64,000 bases of DNA from an uncultured Bacteroidota bacterium (lineage in GTDB: Bacteria; Bacteroidota; Bacteroidia; AKYH767-A; 2013-40CM-41-45). The first letter of the stretch is position 1, and each line of letters begins with the position of its first letter. Where the stretch lies: NCBI GenBank assembly GCA_937871435.1, contig CALMQM010000048.1, positions 1-64,000 of the forward strand, given 5' to 3'. Shown here in pieces: positions 31,369 through 42,961 of this stretch. The notes under the pieces are model-generated. The model did no database searches. It saw nothing but the letters and a program-made list of their open reading frames with translations, and was not told the DNA's origin. The position numbers and the translations under genes were made by a program.

Positions 31369-31722
31369 ATGAATTACCAGTCGGGACTCCACATTTTGGC
31401 AGAATTGAAATCTGAACGGACAGATTTATTGTCAGCTTCTGATTCGCTCAGGATACACTTTGATGAAATGATCAGACACCATGATTTGAACAAGTTGGGC
31501 GAAGTATATCATGAATTTCCGGGAGGAGGATTTACAGGCGTTGTATGTTTGACCGAATCACATATCGCGATACATACCTGGCCGGAATTCGGGTTTGTTA
31601 CTTTCGATGTTTTTCTTTCTAACTATTCTAAAAATAATGATGCAGCCGGAAGGTCAATCTATTTGTCTACGTTGAGTTTTCTTGAAGCAACCGTGGGCAA
31701 CGTGACAGAAATTCGGAGATAA
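31369..31722 (+). CDS. SpeD-like pyruvoyl decarboxylase (AdoMet decarboxylase family)
   Basis: 117 residues, the size of the short prokaryotic (class 1B) S-adenosylmethionine decarboxylases. The self-processing site is intact: E63-S64 in [12 protein letters not shown], where S64 would become the pyruvoyl group, and H69 matches the processing histidine. However, the catalytic cysteine of the family (Cys83 in Thermotoga, usual motif DVFTC) is serine here, S84 in DVFLSN. The normal product, decarboxylated AdoMet, is the aminopropyl donor for spermidine synthase, a homologue of which is encoded in this operon. Related SpeD-fold enzymes decarboxylate arginine or ornithine instead, so substrate assignment stays open. 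It is the first gene, 5 bp before the DUF4178 gene. Confidence 0.85.
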
Positions 31723-31727
31723 AAAAG

Positions 31728-33641
31728 ATGGCATTCAATTTTACACAAACCTGCGCGAGTTGCGGAGCCATGTTGAATTTCCGCTTAGGTGATTCAGCTG
31801 CTATGATATGTCCAAAGTGCAGGAGTTTTGTTCATCGTTCGGTTTCGGTTGCATCTGTTCCCAAAGCAGCGCCTGTACCGGAAGATATGAGCGTGATCCG
31901 GATTGGGACAACCGGAACATTAGAGGGGAAAGCATTTGAAATTATTGGGAGGATCAGATATAACTATCGCAGAAGTTTTCGGAATAAGTGGTTGATGTCA
32001 TTTGCGGATGGCAGTTCCCGGTATTTGATGGAAGGATTGGGTGTGTATGCGGTGATGGAATTGGAGAATGTGAATTTCAGCAGCAGTAAAGTGGCACAAT
32101 TCAAACCGAAAGTAGAAGCAGAATTTCCGGGCGATAAAATTCTGTATGTGGAGGAACTGGAAAAAGTACTTGAGATTCACTTTGATGGAGAATTGATGTC
32201 TGTTTCACATGAGACTCCGGATTTCCTGACAATTTATTTCACAAACAATGATCTGCAATGTGCGTTGATGCAGATTTACAGCAGGACCGAGAATGAAATG
32301 TTTACCGGTCGGCTGATTGAGTTTGAAAAATTTAATTTTAAAAACCTCCGTATTTCAGGTGATCAAAATAAAATTTATCAGGGAAGTTTACCTGCTCCTT
32401 TGAAGTTAACCTGTACACGCTGCTCAGCAGAGTTTCAATTGTTCACTCATGATCAGGCAAAAGTTTGTGCTTGTCCTCAGTGTCATGCGTATTTTGAATA
32501 CAAAAAAAAGACAGCCACATTCAGCGAACAACAAAAAAGACCGGAGGATGTTGCGGATCCTGTATTGCCTGTCGGGAGTCAGGGAAAATTGCGGGATACT
32601 TTTTATATCGTTACCGGATACGCTGTCAAAAAAGACGCGAAATACAATTACCACTGGGTGGAATACACTCTATGGAATCCTGTTTTCGGATATGCCTATT
32701 TAGCTGAGTACAACGGACACTGGAATTATCTGTATCAGGTTGATTACTTCCCACGCGTTGTATTGAAGAAAGATTTTGTTTACACACAGGAAAGATTGTT
32801 TCGCGTTTACAATGTGTACAAGGCTAAAACACTGTATACCGAAGGAGAATTCTCTTTTGATCTTTACGACGCAGATGGTACATCGTATCAGGAATATATT
32901 TCACCACCATATATGCTCACGAGAGAGCTTACGCACGATGAGCTTGGGTGGTATCTCGGCGAATACATTGAGCCTTCGGAGATAAAGGAGGCATTTGATG
33001 TGAAGACGGAATTTCCATCCAAAGTCGGGATCGGTTCTTCGCAGCCTCTGCGGTTAAGTTTTAATCCGAAAACATTGAATCTGGTCACATTTATCATGAT
33101 CGCGTTCGTCACACTTATTCAAATAATATTTGTTTACTCAGCACGCAATGAAACCATTTTTCAGCAACGATTGTCTTCTGTTCCGGATAGCATCGGCCAG
33201 TTAAAACCGGTTGTTTCTCCAACATTCACTTTGCAGGGAGGAAAATCAAATCTTGAGTTTGCGATGTATTCACCTGTTGATAACAATTGGTATGAAGCAG
33301 GTGTAGAGCTGGTGGATGAAAGCAATGGAGCGACTGTTGAATTTTCCAAAGCGATCGAATTTTACAGTGGCTATGACGACGGTCCATGGACAGAAGGACA
33401 AAAAAATGAAGAAGTTATATTGTCCAGCATTCCCGCCGGGAACTATCATTTTGTGTTGTATCCGAGTGTAGGTTCAGGCTTTCCTCCGTTGGATCTTATT
33501 TTGAAAAGAGATGTTCCTGTCTGGTCTAATTATTTTATGACGATAGCTGCATTAATCCTGTTGCCATTAATCCAACGTTGGCGACTCAACAGGTTTGAAC
33601 GAAGTCGTTGGATGGAAAGTGATTTCTCACCGTATGAATAA
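31728..33641 (+). CDS. Duplicated zinc-ribbon/DUF4178 membrane protein
   Basis: 637 residues. Two copies of the same unit: a CxxC...CxxC zinc ribbon (CASCGA...CPKC, residues ~5-30; CTRCSA...CPQC, ~228-255), each followed by a beta-rich DUF4178 domain. Then comes a membrane helix near residue 450 (LVTFIMIAFVTLIQIIFVYS), an extracytoplasmic beta domain of ~140 residues and a second helix near the C-terminus (YFMTIAALILLPLIQRW). The ribbons and DUF4178 units should face the cytoplasm. DUF4178 has no known activity. It lies in a tight operon with speD-like, DUF350 and spermidine-synthase-like genes. Confidence 0.82.
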   Translation: MAFNFTQTCASCGAMLNFRLGDSAAMICPKCRSFVHRSVSVASVPKAAPVPEDMSVIRIGTTGTLEGKAFEIIGRIRYNYRRSFRNKWLMSFADGSSRYLMEGLGVYAVMELENVNFSSSKVAQFKPKVEAEFPGDKILYVEELEKVLEIHFDGELMSVSHETPDFLTIYFTNNDLQCALMQIYSRTENEMFTGRLIEFEKFNFKNLRISGDQNKIYQGSLPAPLKLTCTRCSAEFQLFTHDQAKVCACPQCHAYFEYKKKTATFSEQQKRPEDVADPVLPVGSQGKLRDTFYIVTGYAVKKDAKYNYHWVEYTLWNPVFGYAYLAEYNGHWNYLYQVDYFPRVVLKKDFVYTQERLFRVYNVYKAKTLYTEGEFSFDLYDADGTSYQEYISPPYMLTRELTHDELGWYLGEYIEPSEIKEAFDVKTEFPSKVGIGSSQPLRLSFNPKTLNLVTFIMIAFVTLIQIIFVYSARNETIFQQRLSSVPDSIGQLKPVVSPTFTLQGGKSNLEFAMYSPVDNNWYEAGVELVDESNGATVEFSKAIEFYSGYDDGPWTEGQKNEEVILSSIPAGNYHFVLYPSVGSGFPPLDLILKRDVPVWSNYFMTIAALILLPLIQRWRLNRFERSRWMESDFSPYE

Positions 33642-33821
33642 ATGAAAATGAAAAATCTGAGCAAACACGAATTGTTTTCTTTACGTTATTTCATTGTTTT
33701 CTATCTTCTCATTACAGGAGTTTTTGTGTATGCAGGGATGACAGGATGGAAAATTCTGGATACGACTCCTTCGGAAAAGCACAGCAATGCTTATGGAACA
33801 TCACATTATTACCATAAATAA
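33642..33821 (+). CDS. 59-residue single-pass membrane peptide of the polyamine-related operon
   Basis: The ATG begins at the base after the stop codon of the DUF4178 gene, and the TAA is 9 bp before the DUF350 gene, so the frame fills the gap exactly. The peptide has a charged N-terminus (MKMKNLSKHE), one clear membrane helix (YFIVFYLLITGVFVYAG) and a tail of ~25 residues rich in His and Tyr (TSHYYHK). Its small size makes automated annotation likely to miss it. Position and helix argue that it is real; no family is recognised. Confidence 0.7.
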   Translation: MKMKNLSKHELFSLRYFIVFYLLITGVFVYAGMTGWKILDTTPSEKHSNAYGTSHYYHK

Positions 33822-33830
33822 TTTATACAA

Positions 33831-34049
33831 ATGACAGAGCTTATCAACCTGAAATACATCTTCGCTTCGGTGGTGTATTCATTACTGGGAGTACTCATTT
33901 TTGTTTTAGCCTATTGGATGGTTGAAAAAATGACTCCTGAAAATACCTGGAAAGAGATTACTGAAAAGCAAAATACCGCTGTTGCCATAGTAGCCGGTGC
34001 AGTGATTATCGGTTTGGCGATGATAATCAGCAGTGCAATCCACGGGTGA
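33831..34049 (+). CDS. DUF350 (YjfL-like) membrane protein
   Basis: 72 residues with two membrane helices (VVYSLLGVLIFVLAYWMVEK and VAIVAGAVIIGLAMIISSAI) linked by a short polar loop. This is one DUF350 unit, half of the E. coli YjfL type, so it may act as a dimer. The function is unknown; homologues appear with PspA-like, DUF4178 and polyamine enzymes. The stop codon overlaps the next start by one base (TGATG), which indicates translational coupling. Confidence 0.85.
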   Translation: MTELINLKYIFASVVYSLLGVLIFVLAYWMVEKMTPENTWKEITEKQNTAVAIVAGAVIIGLAMIISSAIHG

Positions 34050-35557
34050 TGCAGCGTTCCCTCACTTTTTTGTTGCTGGTATCCGTACTGGTGGTAGCGA
34101 CTTGCGGACTGATTTACGAATTGGCTGCAGGAACACTTGCAAGTTATTTGCTGGGAGATTCTATCACTCAGTTCAGTACGATTATCGGTGTGTATCTTTT
34201 TGCAATGGGCATAGGTTCATGGCTGAGTAAATTTTTTGAGAGGAACCTGCTTGCCTGGTTTATTCAAATTGAAATTATGGTCGGTGTGGTGGGAGGTTGC
34301 AGTTCAGCCATTCTTTTTCTTTTATTTCCACACATCGAGTTTTTCAGATTGTTGTTGTATTTGTTGATTTTCATTACCGGTGCATTGGTCGGACTTGAAA
34401 TCCCCTTGTTGCTACGAATTTTGAAAAGCAAATTTGAGTTTAAAGATCTCGTATCGAAAGTATTTACATTTGATTACATCGGAGCTCTTTTGGCTTCTGT
34501 AGTTTTTCCTCTCGTGCTGGTTCCGTTCCTGGGATTGGTACGCACTTCATTTTTATTTGGAATTCTGAATGTAGCGGTAGCATATATTCTCTGTCATCGT
34601 TTCCGTGAAGAAATTCCCTGGGCGAATTACCTGAAAGGTTCCGCATTGACTGTTATGTTACTGTTGGCCGGTGGGTTTGCCTGGGCGGATGAGATCATGA
34701 CGATTTCTGAAACTGCGACATACAATGAGCGCGTGGTATATTCTGTTTCTTCATCATATCAAAGAATCGTGCTTACAAAAAATAACCATGAGTTGCGATT
34801 GTACCTGAATGGTAATTTACAATTCAGCAGTCAGGATGAGTACCGTTATCACGAAGCTCTGGTTCATCCGGCAATGCAGAGTATTCATAATCCAAGCAGA
34901 GTGTTGATTCTTGGAGGAGGAGATGGCCTGGCATTGCGTGAAATTCTGAAATATCCTTCGGTCGATTCTGTTACGTTGGTAGATCTGGATCCTGAAATGA
35001 CACATTTATTTTCTACCAATGAGACGTTGCGCTCCTTAAATCATAACAGTCTGCATTCTTCACGTCTCAAAATAGTGAATGCAGATGCCTTCGAATGGTT
35101 GCGTTCCCAACGCGGTTTTTATGATTTTATTTGTGTTGATTTTCCTGATCCCGGTAATTATTCCGTGGGGAAACTTTATACTTTATCATTTTATAAGGAG
35201 CTTGCACGGGTACTAGCGCCCGAAGGGAAAACAGTTATTCAGTCAACTTCCCCATTGATTGCACCTAAATCTTACTGGTGTGTGTACCACACTGTTGAAA
35301 AGGCGGGAATGAATGCAGTACCATACCACACGTATGTTCCGTCCTTTGGTGAGTGGGGTTTTATTCTTGGGATGAAAGAGACTCATTTCTCCCCGCCGGA
35401 TACATTTATAAGTGGTTTGAATTATTTATCCGGACCTACATTTCTTTCGATGATGGAGTTTCCGCATGACATGTCGGAGCGACCAACAGAAATCAATAAA
35501 CTTAACAATCAAATACTCGTTCATTATTTTGAAGATGAATGGGCAGGATACCAATAG
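34049..35557 (+). CDS. Membrane-embedded spermidine-synthase-like aminopropyltransferase
   Basis: 502 residues from ATG 34049 (a GTG three bases earlier is possible). Residues ~1-215 hold about seven membrane helices (RSLTFLLLVSVLVVATCGLI is the first), the fusion type often labelled fused MFS/spermidine synthase. The rest is a complete SpeE domain: YQRIVL, then LQFSSQDEYRYHEALVHP (polyamine-side residues), the AdoMet-binding GGGDGLALREIL and VDLDPE, and VDFPDP, which retains the acidic residues at the catalytic site. It should transfer an aminopropyl group, probably at the cytoplasmic membrane face, to an amine acceptor that could be lipid-linked or a transported polyamine. This is inferred. 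Confidence 0.87.
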   Translation: MQRSLTFLLLVSVLVVATCGLIYELAAGTLASYLLGDSITQFSTIIGVYLFAMGIGSWLSKFFERNLLAWFIQIEIMVGVVGGCSSAILFLLFPHIEFFRLLLYLLIFITGALVGLEIPLLLRILKSKFEFKDLVSKVFTFDYIGALLASVVFPLVLVPFLGLVRTSFLFGILNVAVAYILCHRFREEIPWANYLKGSALTVMLLLAGGFAWADEIMTISETATYNERVVYSVSSSYQRIVLTKNNHELRLYLNGNLQFSSQDEYRYHEALVHPAMQSIHNPSRVLILGGGDGLALREILKYPSVDSVTLVDLDPEMTHLFSTNETLRSLNHNSLHSSRLKIVNADAFEWLRSQRGFYDFICVDFPDPGNYSVGKLYTLSFYKELARVLAPEGKTVIQSTSPLIAPKSYWCVYHTVEKAGMNAVPYHTYVPSFGEWGFILGMKETHFSPPDTFISGLNYLSGPTFLSMMEFPHDMSERPTEINKLNNQILVHYFEDEWAGYQ

Positions 35558-35571
35558 TATAATTCTGTCTG

Positions 35572-37188
35572 ATGCAACGAAGAGAATTTGTTCGTAATGT
35601 TTTACTCGGAGGCGCTTCGCTATTTGTAGTCAGAAATCTCGAGGCGTGCATGCCAGGAGATTCTTTTGCACACATTCAAGGCAGCATACGTGGGGGCAAT
35701 TCGAAAACAAGTCATTTATTGCGTGAAGGAAAATTTCCTCCTGCCTCAAAGTTCGTGGATGTGGAATGCCTGATTGTAGGTGGTGGAATTTCCGGTTTGT
35801 CTGCAGCAAGAAAATTGGTTCAAGCAGGAATTACAGATATTATAGTCCTGGATCTTGAAGATCATATCGGGGGAAATTCTCATGGCGGTAAAAATGAAGT
35901 GAGCGCTTATCCGTGGGGAGCACATTATTTACCCCTTGTAAATCCGGGACAGGAAGAATTAATTTCATTTCTGAAAGAAATCGGAGTGATACGATCAGTT
36001 GCTGAAAATGGCTTGCCTGTTTACAATGAATATTATCTCTGTCAGGATCCGGAAGAACGATTGTTTCTTCGCGGTCAGTGGCAGGAAGGAATCATTCCTT
36101 CTTTCGGATTGCCGGATTCACATCAGGCAGAAGTGAAACGTTTCCTGGATACGATGCAGCAGTTACGGTATAAAATGGGAAAGGACGGGAAAGAAGCTTT
36201 TGCCATTCCAGCTGCGGAAAGTTCACAAGATGCTGAGTTCAGGGAATTGGATAAAATCAGTATGAAAGAGTATATGATGCGTGAAAAGTATGCATCGCCG
36301 GAATTGATGTGGTACATTAACTATTGTTGCCGCGACGATTTTGGTACTCCTGCTGACGAAACATCCGCCTGGGCAGGGATTCATTATTTCGCCGGAAGAA
36401 AAGGAGTGGCGGCAAACGCAGAAATGAACTCTGTACTCACCTGGCCTGAAGGAAACAAATTTCTTGCAGAAAAACTGGCTGCTGAATTCAGTGATAAAAT
36501 ACAAACCGGACAATTGATTTTCAATGTTCGGCTGAATGCGGATTTTGTCGAAGCCCAATCCTATGATGTGCAATCAGCATCTGTTGTTTGTTATCGGGCA
36601 AAAAAAGTAGTGCTTGCAGTTCCACAGTTTGTAGCGCGACGGATTTTGAATAATACATCCTCCGGGAAAGAGATAATGGATGCTTTTCACTATGCACCGT
36701 GGATGGTGGCAAATGTTACTGTGAAAAAACCTGAAACGAGAAGTGGCCAGATTGAATTGTGTTGGGACAATGTCTTTTATAACAGTGAATCTCTCGGATA
36801 TGTGAATGCATGTCATCAGCATCTCAGTTCTCATCCCGGAATGGTTGTTCTTACTTATTATTTGCCTTTGACAAAGGGAAGTCCTTTTGAAGAGAGGACG
36901 AATGCATTAAAGCAAACGCATCGTTCCTGGGTTGAAGTGATCGTCAAAGACCTGGAGCAGGCTCATCCCGGAATTGGAAAAGAGATCACTACTATTGATG
37001 TTTGGTTGTGGGGGCATGCGATGATCCGTCCGGAGAAGAATTTCATGTTTAGTCAAGTCCGTCAGGAAGCCGGAAAGCCGATTGAAGGCAAAATATTTTT
37101 TGCACATTCTGATTTGAGCGGGATGTCGATATTTGAAGAAGCTTTTTCACAGGGAATCAGAGCAGCGAAAGAAATTCTGGAAGCATGA
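35572..37188 (+). CDS. Tat-exported FAD amine-oxidase-like protein
   Basis: 538 residues. The N-terminus is a twin-arginine signal (QRREFVRNVLLGGASLFVV) ending in LEAC, so it may also be a lipoprotein anchored at Cys26. The FAD-binding Rossmann motif follows at about residue 66, LIVGGGISGLSAARKLV, then DLEDHIGGNSHGG, as in flavin amine oxidases and protoporphyrinogen oxidase. The C-terminal FAD motif is visible near FFAHSDLSGMSIFEEAFSQG. It would be exported folded, with flavin. Within this operon a polyamine or amine group is the natural substrate guess; dehydrogenation of another compound is equally possible. Confidence 0.82.
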   Translation: MQRREFVRNVLLGGASLFVVRNLEACMPGDSFAHIQGSIRGGNSKTSHLLREGKFPPASKFVDVECLIVGGGISGLSAARKLVQAGITDIIVLDLEDHIGGNSHGGKNEVSAYPWGAHYLPLVNPGQEELISFLKEIGVIRSVAENGLPVYNEYYLCQDPEERLFLRGQWQEGIIPSFGLPDSHQAEVKRFLDTMQQLRYKMGKDGKEAFAIPAAESSQDAEFRELDKISMKEYMMREKYASPELMWYINYCCRDDFGTPADETSAWAGIHYFAGRKGVAANAEMNSVLTWPEGNKFLAEKLAAEFSDKIQTGQLIFNVRLNADFVEAQSYDVQSASVVCYRAKKVVLAVPQFVARRILNNTSSGKEIMDAFHYAPWMVANVTVKKPETRSGQIELCWDNVFYNSESLGYVNACHQHLSSHPGMVVLTYYLPLTKGSPFEERTNALKQTHRSWVEVIVKDLEQAHPGIGKEITTIDVWLWGHAMIRPEKNFMFSQVRQEAGKPIEGKIFFAHSDLSGMSIFEEAFSQGIRAAKEILEA

Positions 37189-38285
37189 ACAGAACAGGGA
37201 AAGATTTTTCCGTAACTCAGCCATGGATATACAAGTCCATGCCTGATCTGATCTTTATTTTATTGCCACCATTTCTTTCGCTACTAATAGTGTTTGCTTT
37301 CCCGGGACTTTTTCGTAATCCTGAAGGCATCCCTGATCTTGTCTGGCTCTTGCTGATTGTATTTGTGGATGTAGCACATGTTTACAGCACATTGTACCGG
37401 ACTTATTTTGATGCTGAAACATTTCAAAAACAAAAAGGAATTCTGATTAGTATACCGATTTTCGTTTTTATCCTGGCTGTTGTGTTGTATTCCATCGCGC
37501 CACTTTTATTTTGGAGAATTCTTGCTTACCTGGCGGTGTATCATTTCATCCGTCAACAATATGGATTCATGCGAATTTATTCCAGGAAAGAAAAAGTTTC
37601 ACGAATTGAATATTGGGTGGATACAATTACGATTTATTCAGCGACACTATACCCGGTATTATATTGGCACATGCATGGTCCCAGAAATTTTAATTGGTTT
37701 GTTGACAATGATTTTTTGTATTTCCAATCCGGTTGGTTGTCCAAATTGTGTTTTGGGCTATATGTGATCATTCTGATTGTTTATGTTGTAAAGGAAATCA
37801 ATTTAGTGAGATTCAGCGGCAAATTTAATCTTCCCAAAAATCTTGTTGTGACCGGAACTGCTTTGTCGTGGTATTTCGGAATTGTATATTTTAATGGAGA
37901 TCTTATTTTTACCCTGCTGAATGTGGTTAGCCATGGGATTCCCTATATGGCACTGGTATGGATGTATGGAAGAAAGCAGGAAATAAAGGAGAGACATACT
38001 AATGTTTTTCTGCAGAAAGTTTTCAGTGGATATGGTTGGCTCATTTTTTTAATGACCATGGTTTGCTTTGCCTATTTTGAAGAAGGGATTTGGGATGTTT
38101 GGATATGGAAAGACCATACTTCCTTATTTCAGCCTTTTTCTTTTTTGCCGGTGCTGAAAAACGCAACGTTGCTGAATATCCTTGTTCCATTGCTTACTGT
38201 ACCGCAGGCTACACATTACATTATTGACGGCTTTATCTGGCGCTTGTCAAAGGGAGAAACTTTTTGGGCAAAGAAAATTCTATGA
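37185..38285 (+). CDS. Polytopic membrane protein with histidine motifs
   Basis: 366 residues with about eight to nine membrane helices and no recognised family. Histidines recur next to helices in patterns reminiscent of membrane di-iron enzymes (VDVAHVYSTLYRTYFD near residue 65, LAVYHFIRQQYGFMR near 122, VVSHGIPYMALVW near 248, QATHYIIDGFIWR near 347). These could be metal ligands, as in membrane desaturases, hydroxylases or Brp/Blh-type dioxygenases, but no exact motif matches. The ATGA overlap with the oxidase gene shows co-translation. It is the last gene of the operon. Confidence 0.75.
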   Translation: MNRTGKDFSVTQPWIYKSMPDLIFILLPPFLSLLIVFAFPGLFRNPEGIPDLVWLLLIVFVDVAHVYSTLYRTYFDAETFQKQKGILISIPIFVFILAVVLYSIAPLLFWRILAYLAVYHFIRQQYGFMRIYSRKEKVSRIEYWVDTITIYSATLYPVLYWHMHGPRNFNWFVDNDFLYFQSGWLSKLCFGLYVIILIVYVVKEINLVRFSGKFNLPKNLVVTGTALSWYFGIVYFNGDLIFTLLNVVSHGIPYMALVWMYGRKQEIKERHTNVFLQKVFSGYGWLIFLMTMVCFAYFEEGIWDVWIWKDHTSLFQPFSFLPVLKNATLLNILVPLLTVPQATHYIIDGFIWRLSKGETFWAKKIL

Positions 38286-40832: not shown

Positions 40833-42905
40833 TCATTCTTTATTGGAACCTGTAACACTATACATATCTATTTCGCCCTTGTTCTTTGCTTTGATTTTTC
40901 CTCTGTGAATACAAACGAACTGATTTTTTACCAGCTCATAAGTATTCTGGCTGATGTTAATTTGTCCTGTTTCAGCGCTGCTTTCCATGCGGGATGCGAT
41001 GTTTACAGTATCACCCCAAATGTCGTAAGCAAATTTTTTCACACCAACAATTCCGGCAACTACAGGTCCACTATGTATACCAATTCTTATTTCAAATAAA
41101 TCCTGATTCAGCTTTTTTCTTTCATCGTTGAAGCGATTCATGTAGTTCCGGATTTCCAACGCAGCTGAAACTACAAGTGAGGCATGCGAATTATCCACTA
41201 CAGGCAGTCCGCCGGCGGCCATATAACTGTCGCCGATCGTTTTAATTTTTTCGATTTTGTATTTGTCAATGATGGCATCAAAAGCGCGGAAGAGAGTATC
41301 AATATCTTTTACAAGTTCGGCAGGACTCAATTTTTCAGAAATTTGTGTAAAGCTTTTGAAATCAGTGAACATGACAGTGACCTGATCAAACTGTCTCGCA
41401 TTCGCGTTCCCGTTCATTTTGAGTTCTTCCGCAACTTCTTCCGGAAGAATATTGTGCAGAAGTTCATCGCTTCGTTTTTTACCTTTTTGAATCCGGTTGC
41501 GTTGCATCAACACGATCACTCCAAAGAATAGGACTATGGCAAAACCTGCTATGAAACCATTTCGAACTTGTTTTTGTCTTTTGAGTTCAGCGGCTGCGAT
41601 GGCGTCTTTCTTTTCCTGTTCGCTGCGCAACTTCGCTTCTTTCTTTTCATATTCATAACGAAATTTAGTTTGCAACGAAATTTTTCTGTTCTTGTCATTT
41701 TGAACACTGTCTCGCATCTGAATATACAGATCAGTCATTTCCAGTGCCTGTTTCCAGGACTGTTTTGAACGATACAGTTTTCCGAGATTGTCAGCGGCAT
41801 TGCGGATATCCGCAGGATAACCAAGTTCTTTTGCAGTAGCAAGAGAACGCTCAAGAAGCGGAAGAGCTTCCGCGACATCTCCTGTAGAAAATAAAGCTGC
41901 TCCATATAAATTAGTGCTGATCGCAATTCCCCATTTATCTCCCAGAGATTCAAAACCTGCAAGACTTTCACGGTAATAATTTTTTGCCAGGGAAATGTTT
42001 CCCGCTTTTTCGTAAGCCATCCCGATATTTTTTTGGGAATACGCGATACCTTGTTTATCGCCGAGCGCAATTCTTAGTTCGAGAGCTTTGTTGTAGAAAT
42101 ACAAGGCTGAGTCGGGACGATTGAGTTCTTCCTGTACACCACCCAAAGCATTGTATGAGTAGGCGCTGGAATACTTGTCGTTGGTTTTAATTTCTATTTC
42201 GAGCGCGCGACGAAAGAAGCTCATCGCTTCATTGTATTGATTCTGGTCTTTATAAATAAATCCTATGTTCTGAAAAGCGGTGGCGATACCCTCGGAGTTG
42301 TTGATTTTTTCTTCAATGGACAATGCTTTCATGTAATATTCCAACGCTTCAGGGATTTGGCCCTGATTGGAATAGATTAAACCCATGTTGTTGTAGGTTG
42401 TCGCGATACCGTCAGAGTCATGTATTTCAATTTTTATTGCAAGACTTTTTTCGTTCAACGCGATCGCCTGTTCAATTTGTCCCTGGTCTTTGTAAATAGC
42501 AGCCATATTATTCAATACTGTTGCCGCGTCCCTTTTGGATCCTGATTTTTCGAAAAGTGTGAGACTTTGCTGGTAATAATCCAGAGCTTTTTTTATATCG
42601 CCCTGTTGTTCATACAAAAAAGCAAGCCAACCGAGAGCGTTTGATAGCCCATCAGTGTAATTGATGGTAGTGGAAAGTTGCCGTGCTTTTTCACATTGTT
42701 GGATTGCCTGATCCGGATGGTCGTTGTACAATTCTCCTGCGAGTGCGAGCAAAGTTTGTACACGCATTGTATCCGCGATCGGGTGCTGTAATACTTTTTG
42801 AATGGAATCGATCTTGTTTTGATCCTGAGCAAAAACGTTTAATGAAATTACACTCAGTGTAAAAAGAACGAAGTACCATTTCCGGTAAGCGTAAAATGCA
42901 TTCAT
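40833..42905 (-). CDS. TPR sensor protein with class III adenylate cyclase domain
   Basis: 690 residues from the second ATG (42905; 42920 is also possible). A signal sequence leads into about seven TPR-like repeats (ALDYYQQSLTLFEKSG and similar), then a coiled coil (KKEAKLRSEQEKKDAIAAAE), one membrane helix near residue 455, a short linker and a class III nucleotide cyclase domain. The metal aspartates (MFTDFKSF and IGDSYMAAG), the lysine in EKIKTIGD and aspartate in YDIWGD that select ATP, and the Asn/Arg pair in VNIASRMES are all intact. So it should make cAMP in the cytoplasm in response to a signal sensed by the extracytoplasmic TPR array. A 19-bp palindrome lies upstream. Confidence 0.9.
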   Translation of the reverse strand: MNAFYAYRKWYFVLFTLSVISLNVFAQDQNKIDSIQKVLQHPIADTMRVQTLLALAGELYNDHPDQAIQQCEKARQLSTTINYTDGLSNALGWLAFLYEQQGDIKKALDYYQQSLTLFEKSGSKRDAATVLNNMAAIYKDQGQIEQAIALNEKSLAIKIEIHDSDGIATTYNNMGLIYSNQGQIPEALEYYMKALSIEEKINNSEGIATAFQNIGFIYKDQNQYNEAMSFFRRALEIEIKTNDKYSSAYSYNALGGVQEELNRPDSALYFYNKALELRIALGDKQGIAYSQKNIGMAYEKAGNISLAKNYYRESLAGFESLGDKWGIAISTNLYGAALFSTGDVAEALPLLERSLATAKELGYPADIRNAADNLGKLYRSKQSWKQALEMTDLYIQMRDSVQNDKNRKISLQTKFRYEYEKKEAKLRSEQEKKDAIAAAELKRQKQVRNGFIAGFAIVLFFGVIVLMQRNRIQKGKKRSDELLHNILPEEVAEELKMNGNANARQFDQVTVMFTDFKSFTQISEKLSPAELVKDIDTLFRAFDAIIDKYKIEKIKTIGDSYMAAGGLPVVDNSHASLVVSAALEIRNYMNRFNDERKKLNQDLFEIRIGIHSGPVVAGIVGVKKFAYDIWGDTVNIASRMESSAETGQINISQNTYELVKNQFVCIHRGKIKAKNKGEIDMYSVTGSNKE

Positions 42906-42961
42906 GGGGCGGTGATACATTTTAGAGGTTCCCTTTATTTAATGAATCAGAACATCTTCAT

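Follow-up and report, generated by a model that had tools for sequence, protein, structure and literature searches.

A gene cluster type that joins S-adenosylmethionine (AdoMet) decarboxylase (SpeD), a membrane-fused spermidine synthase (SpeE) and a DUF350 protein was reportedly described by Li and colleagues in Biochem J in 2019, and a substrate other than putrescine is said to have been proposed for it. The seven-gene operon analysed here lies at positions 31369-38285 of a 64,000-nucleotide stretch of DNA from an uncultured Bacteroidota bacterium (the window; GenBank assembly GCA_937871435.1, contig CALMQM010000048.1, positions 1 to 64,000). It has the same core of SpeD, membrane-SpeE fusion and DUF350; unlike those clusters, it puts a name to a candidate substrate, the C-terminal lysine of an adjacent small membrane peptide (gene 3), and it adds genes 6 and 7. 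Judged from its sequence and that of its relatives, the operon may encode an envelope system for post-translational modification, in which gene 5 would aminopropylate the C-terminal lysine of gene 3 and genes 6 and 7 would act afterwards, a reading that we hold to be evenly poised between right and wrong.

In the literature consulted, the widespread membrane-SpeE fusions have no established substrate, and a 2024 analysis considered polyamines or 'aminopropylation of other substrates' (PMC11237479). According to a 2025 paper, which cites Li 2019, experiments have shown bacterial fusions of this kind to take no part in making spermidine or spermine (PMC12803844). Operons linked to PspA and CesT combine a seven-transmembrane-helix (7TM) spermidine synthase, DUF350, a lipoprotein and DUF4178, and a band-7/SHOCT variant includes an AdoMet decarboxylase and a polyamine oxidase (Ravi et al., 2024, PMC11237479). 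These operons have the families of genes 1, 2, 4, 5 and 6 as well as the envelope setting in common with the window operon, and the link of DUF350 and DUF4178 to polyamine enzymes in a PspA context, which a preliminary description of the window had mentioned, is already in print there (PMC11237479). The main text of that paper names neither gene 3 nor gene 7 and notes no C-terminal lysine (PMC11237479). In the window operon, unlike the published ones, none of the seven genes matches PspA or CesT/Tir, and there is no band-7 gene. Because the core and the polyamine-oxidase variant had already been published, only part of the set is undescribed; the preliminary description had suggested this of the complete set, and the suggestion now narrows to gene 7 and the Bacteroidota layout, neither of which was found described.

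Polyamine units built on protein lysines are known from hypusination and from silaffins; hypusine receives an aminobutyl group from spermidine via deoxyhypusine synthase, and silaffins are eukaryotic. The proposed target in the window operon differs from both in being a C-terminal lysine. A further parallel is offered by YgiC and YjfC, peptide–spermidine ligases that are reportedly the subject of a 2023 paper by Pederick and colleagues. In Escherichia coli, YjfC and YgiC, annotated as ATP-grasp peptide–spermidine ligases, adjoin the DUF1190 proteins YjfM (locus L261, 10388-11026) and YgiB (locus L262, 3745-4416), whose tails end in -HWGG and -SMGG, respectively. Across DUF1190 loci, 13 of 24 proteins end in -GG and 0 of 24 in lysine, some of the others having been read in the wrong frame by the script. 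The two E. coli pairs resemble the window operon in having a membrane or lipoprotein partner with a Ser/Gly/Arg tail beside a polyamine-conjugating enzyme, and YjfM sits with DUF350 and PspA genes. They differ in that the enzyme is an ATP-grasp amide ligase and the tails end in -GG, whereas the window operon has neither an ATP-grasp nor a DUF1190 gene and its tail ends in -HK. Enzyme and tail match in both cases: an amide ligase calls for a free carboxylate, an aminopropyltransferase for an amine. By analogy, the Gly-Gly tails seem to play for the amide ligases the part that the lysine tails would play for SpeE. A literature search for bacterial protein-lysine aminopropylation found nothing relevant among the papers available to it. 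Nor were the rule of a C-terminal lysine, gene 7 or the seven-gene form without PspA found described in the main texts covered, which did not include Li 2019 and Pederick 2023, so that priority is not certain.

Gene content and C-terminal tails

The operon consists of seven tightly packed open reading frames (ORFs), all present at the following coordinates:

31369-38285, + strand: seven-gene operon
31369..31722, + strand: gene 1, class 1b AdoMet decarboxylase (SpeD) homologue, 117 amino acids (AdoMet_dc PF02675, E 5e-21)
31728..33641, + strand: gene 2, zinc-ribbon/DUF4178 protein with C-terminal membrane helices, 637 amino acids (DUF4178, E 3e-13, two matching stretches)
33642..33821, + strand: gene 3, single-helix membrane peptide, 59 amino acids, predicted substrate (no family match)
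33813..33818, + strand: C-terminal His-Lys codons of gene 3 (cat aaa), the last Lys being the predicted aminopropyl acceptor (stop codon taa, 33819-33821)
33831..34049, + strand: gene 4, DUF350 membrane protein, 72 amino acids (PF03994, E 6e-15)
34046..35557, + strand: gene 5, membrane-helix domain fused to an aminopropyltransferase (SpeE), 503 amino acids (Spermine_synth, E 6e-36; NF002956)
35572..37188, + strand: gene 6, FAD protein with amine-oxidase fold, predicted twin-arginine translocation (Tat) substrate and probable lipoprotein, 538 amino acids (PF01593, E 4e-15)
37185..38285, + strand: gene 7, polytopic membrane protein, family unnamed (no match in Pfam or NCBIfam; nine invariant residues)

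The coordinates and close spacings given in the preliminary description were borne out: 5 bp between genes 1 and 2 (31722/31728), 0 bp between genes 2 and 3 (33641/33642), 9 bp between genes 3 and 4 (33821/33831) and 14 bp between genes 5 and 6 (35557/35572). Genes 4 and 5 overlap by 1 bp if gene 5 starts at ATG 34049 and by 4 bp if it starts at GTG 34046, and genes 6 and 7 overlap by 4 bp (37185-37188).

Gene 3 encodes one hydrophobic helix followed by a variable Gly/Ser/His-rich tail, which in the window ends ...GTSHYYHK. When all the ORFs that separate gene 2 from gene 5 were read at 85 loci, a separate ORF ending in -HK was found at 83, under at least eight phylum labels; the final His and Lys are thus present in 83/83 separate gene-3 ORFs, a figure that follows from their having been selected for -HK. 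The other common endings in the same reading (-HG, -HS and -IH) belong to DUF350, and each remaining dipeptide occurs at no more than 2 of the 85 loci. The two exceptions (L094 and L065) have gene 3 as the C-terminal part of a fused gene 2, with the final residues ...AYFHHK and ...VSGSHK; the tail is also a C-terminal fusion on the gene-2 orthologue at several Pseudomonadota DUF4178 loci. In Solitalea agri (L087, 3294-6764), where genes 2, 3 and 4 are tandemly duplicated, both gene-3 copies end in -YYHK. The residues preceding the final two are hypervariable and position -3 is not fixed, and this free variation points to the C-terminal His-Lys as the selected feature. Charge averages +1.6 before the gene-3 helix and +0.4 after it and is higher before it in only 55 of 83 peptides, an asymmetry too weak for fixing the topology.

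Lysine tails also occur outside the clade of the window operon. At Bacteroidota PspA-type loci, the adjacent lipoprotein or transmembrane peptide ends ...GGFGK, ...SFGK or ...GGK. Among 30 Pseudomonadota loci with an NF002956 protein, 24 have a same-strand hydrophobic ORF within 7 kb with a Gly/Ser tail ending in Lys, compared with six loci for the next commonest final residue in the same search, Leu, and a background C-terminal Lys share of 4.6%; two further tails on the opposite strand and one about 8 kb away bring the total to 27/30. The Pseudomonadota tails end in -HK, -GK or -IK (-VK in Tritonibacter), which suggests that the rule outside the clade of the window is a C-terminal lysine without a fixed His. 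All Pseudomonadota loci that carry gene 6 have -HK tails (9/9, counting L231, with gene 6 just outside the stretch, and L234, with the tail farther off), as against 1/18 of the tails at loci without it (Fisher P 2e-6), which are mostly -GK, -IK or -VK. Gene 6 is linked to the tail by this association of its presence with the -HK end.

Gene 5 and ordinary polyamine synthesis

Gene 5 matches the NF002956/PRK03612 model over its full length (residues 6-501, 663.2 bits, cut-off 472). The GGGDG motif, both Asp of DFPDP (D365 and D368) and DEYRYHE, placed by alignment to solved aminopropyltransferases, are invariant in 84/84 gene-5 proteins, and at the level of sequence the catalytic Asp pair and the motifs that bind decarboxylated AdoMet (dcAdoMet) are intact. 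Gene 1 is the sole SpeD and gene 5 the sole SpeE of the window's genome, and in each of the 10 genomes tested (the window's and nine with the operon or its gene-7-less form) SpeD and SpeE occur just once, at the locus. All 10 also carry a gene of the deoxyhypusine-synthase/SpeY family, a known route by which homospermidine could be supplied without SpeD or SpeE; no NspC route to spermidine was found in the window's genome. The view that the SpeD/SpeE chemistry of the operon probably lies outside ordinary polyamine synthesis is supported. The opposite view, that genes 1 and 5 perform ordinary spermidine synthesis and the other genes are passengers, draws on the NCBIfam family name (polyamine aminopropyltransferase) and on the genome having no other SpeD or SpeE. 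It runs against the statement that related proteins are uninvolved in spermidine or spermine synthesis (PMC12803844), the presence of a SpeY-family gene and the persistence of seven genes together over large distances, and we consider it highly improbable.

Distribution of the gene set

The distribution was followed in a sample of 247 Bacteroidota genomes and in public genome contigs, where a scan based on an alignment of gene 7 yielded 80 loci. Gene 7 of the close kind occurs in 8 of the 247 genomes (the window's own and seven of its class), all of which hold the seven genes in unchanged order. This order was found in several Bacteroidota families and is the same at nearly all of the 80 public loci. 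Neighbourhood comparison, which the preliminary description had put forward as its check, therefore found the genes together rather than mostly apart, and the proposal of a single envelope system stands: the seven genes are one conserved system. Two genomes (G002 and G212) have genes 1, 2, 4, 5 and 6 and lack gene 7; G212 has gene 3 as a separate ORF, and in G002 it forms a fusion with gene 2. In Bryobacterales F-183 (G426; loci L201 and L267), genes 5, 6 and 7 are dispersed at about 3.08, 5.84 and 2.84 Mb on the chromosome.

A six-gene form, in the order gene 2 (in two pieces), 3, 4, 5, 6, 7, was found on contigs labelled Leptospiraceae, Verrucomicrobia, Alphaproteobacteria, Oligoflexia, Obscuribacterales, Cyanobacteria and FCPU426, which are mostly metagenome assemblies; SpeD follows gene 7 in four of them and was otherwise not seen on the contig. 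Their gene-5 proteins form a clade of their own (99/91), and this, together with a gene order unlike that of Bacteroidota, makes simple contamination unlikely. In the gene-5 tree, all gene-6-bearing systems fall in one clade (98/99), separate from the PspA-type loci.

Genes 1, 6 and 7

The preliminary description of gene 1 as a SpeD-like pyruvoyl enzyme holds for the PF02675 match and for the pyruvoyl site, with Glu63-Ser64 and His69 invariant in 76/76 orthologues. Decarboxylase activity is less certain because the catalytic Cys position (Cys83 in Thermotoga maritima) is Ser84 in the window, and Ser in 66/76 orthologues against Cys in 10/76; the TIGR03330 score, 74.8, is just below the cut-off of 75.65. 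At four non-Bacteroidota loci (L125, L135, L148 and L153), the SpeD that follows gene 7 retains the catalytic Cys, while most Bacteroidota operon SpeD proteins have Ser. A replacement of SpeD, or its separate recruitment, probably lies behind this difference between the two groups of loci.

Gene 6 matches PF01593 above the cut-off, and its structure model (predicted local distance difference test score, pLDDT, 90.6) is nearest to putrescine oxidase and monoamine oxidase (MAO), with a Z of about 30 and a root-mean-square deviation of 3.2 over 420 residues. The protein is predicted from its N-terminus to be exported, with an RR/RK motif in 32 of 35 orthologues and, by a loose pattern, a lipobox-like Cys in 23 of 35. 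The earlier label 'FAD oxidase-like' is upheld in respect of the amine-oxidase fold, though not of the conserved lysine of MAO and polyamine oxidase (PAO) types, for which no alignment column exceeded 70% Lys among the 35 orthologues, a comparison made by alignment and not by superposition.

Gene 7 has nine residues invariant in 63/63 proteins (D62, H65, H120, R123, Q124, Y126, H250, H344 and D348), among them four His and two Asp, possible ligands of a metal. Its structure model (pLDDT 91.7) had no Foldseek match in the PDB at E <= 0.001 (best E 0.68), and microbial rhodopsins gave the best VIA Z, 6.8; with helical bundles such a score may reflect only a common arrangement. We considered homology to the Brp/Blh carotene dioxygenases, with which gene 7 (in the window and at L154-L183) has in common four His motifs of similar order and spacing, but did not adopt it: 0/63 gene-7 proteins match PF15461 (Brp/Blh beta-carotene dioxygenase, BCD), and hhalign P values to BCD were 0.003 for stand-alone gene-7 homologues (168 columns) and 0.11 for the core gene 7 against 0.012 for an unrelated control, so that the suggestive motif order is within the noise of the control. 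The stand-alone homologues (L027-L034, cluster c0, in other Bacteroidota) have 20-24% identity and about 390-440 amino acids and keep D62, H65, H120, R123, Q124, H250, H344 and D348. They have no common operon partner that would explain their function and are a second, unlinked use of the gene-7 family.

Proposed pathway and alternative explanations

In the pathway that we propose, gene 1 would supply dcAdoMet, from which the membrane-held gene 5 would move one or more aminopropyl groups onto the last Lys of gene 3, or of the fused protein where gene 3 is joined to gene 2. The product would be a protein-bound aminopropyl-lysine, in effect a short polyamine carried on the tip of a flexible tail. 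Partner or scaffold functions would fall to genes 2 and 4, gene 2 at times bearing the tail itself, and genes 6 and 7 would then process the modified His-Lys end further or read it. The donor step is based on the intact gene-5 motifs, with gene 1 itself doubtful, the transfer on conservation and enzyme logic, and the step of genes 6 and 7 on just the structure of the operon; lysine as the acceptor, the order of the steps, the membrane side and the roles of genes 6 and 7 are what we infer from these. The preliminary description had also placed aminopropyl transfer at the envelope, which we retain, but its acceptor, a membrane or periplasmic amine, gives way to the C-terminal lysine of gene 3, and the 59-amino-acid peptide that it had left without a role is now the best-supported candidate for the acceptor protein.

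Several observations weigh against this pathway. Ser84 in place of the catalytic Cys makes the supply of dcAdoMet by gene 1 doubtful, and without the conserved MAO/PAO lysine 'amine oxidase' is, for gene 6, a fold assignment. Charge distribution, as a test of the membrane side of the SpeE domain, was indecisive. The lysine tails beyond the clade of the window were found by a filter that sought lysine, with the counts for other residues as the control, and no tail was seen at three Pseudomonadota loci, two solitary Bacteroidota gene-5 loci and Gemmatirosa. The association of -HK with gene 6 goes back to a single gain of tail and gene 6 on the tree and hence reflects co-inheritance, not repeated co-evolution; moreover, Bryobacterales F-183 has a (dispersed) gene 6, yet the tail beside its gene 5 ends in -GGK, and another genome (G500) has an -HK end with no gene 6 detected.

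Gene 5 might instead aminopropylate a small amine or the head group of an envelope lipid, the product being oxidised by gene 6, with gene 3 only a scaffold; this is broadly the view of the preliminary description and comes near the published proposal that putrescine is not the substrate. The membrane anchoring of the SpeE domain, the published suggestion of 'other substrates' for an enzyme whose substrate is open in the literature (PMC11237479) and the structural nearness of gene 6 to putrescine oxidase and MAO all fit this explanation. It nevertheless leaves unexplained why the C-terminal lysine is invariant, even in gene 2-3 fusions, and why lysine tails lie beside unrelated 7TM-SpeE loci, and we regard it as unlikely. 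Slightly less likely still is that the His-Lys tail is a docking or ligand peptide that is bound and not modified, its partner being gene 6, gene 7 or a metal, as in Gly-His-Lys-like copper binding. Short C-terminal motifs behind flexible linkers are typical of docking peptides, the His is invariant, and the four His and two Asp of gene 7 could offer the metal site; however, beyond the gene-6 clade it is the Lys that is kept and not the His, residue -3 is not fixed, and the link to an aminopropyltransferase is left unexplained. If gene 1 had ceased to be an AdoMet decarboxylase and become a shifted pyruvoyl enzyme, another chemistry would operate at the tail. The frequent Cys-to-Ser change, the TIGR03330 score just short of its cut-off and the documented origin of ornithine and arginine decarboxylases from SpeD (PMC10407285) speak for such a shift, which we still find very unlikely: the 10 orthologues that retain Cys occur with the same tail and gene 5, gene 5 keeps its dcAdoMet motifs, and the donor would otherwise be missing because there is no other SpeD.

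Modification of the gene-3 lysine may be one case of a wider pattern, to which we give somewhat less than even weight. Bacterial membrane-SpeE proteins would then generally modify proteins, each assembling a polyamine on the final lysine of a membrane-anchored tail protein dedicated to it, with YgiC/YjfC as the equivalent at Gly-Gly ends; a clade spanning many phyla would have added an exported FAD protein, and part of that clade the gene-7 family, acting on the His-Lys end. The conserved C-terminal lysine on an adjacent membrane protein makes the substrate question concrete and cheaply testable by mass spectrometry. If true, this would be a new class of bacterial protein modification that unites the SpeE fusions and the peptide–spermidine ligases under one idea, and the family-less small ORF of gene 3 and the unnamed family of gene 7 would gain a place in a pathway.

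Other observations

An Alteromonas plasmid (L200, 6911-13569) carries a run of 7TM-SpeE, SpeD, a TelA-like toxic-anion-resistance protein, DUF4178, a long lipoprotein-like protein and DUF350, and the long lipoprotein-like protein ends in -PSSGK. Elsewhere in the window, an ORF at 40833-42920 (695 amino acids) has, by eye only, N-terminal repeats resembling tetratricopeptide repeats and a C-terminal class III adenylate/guanylate cyclase-like domain.

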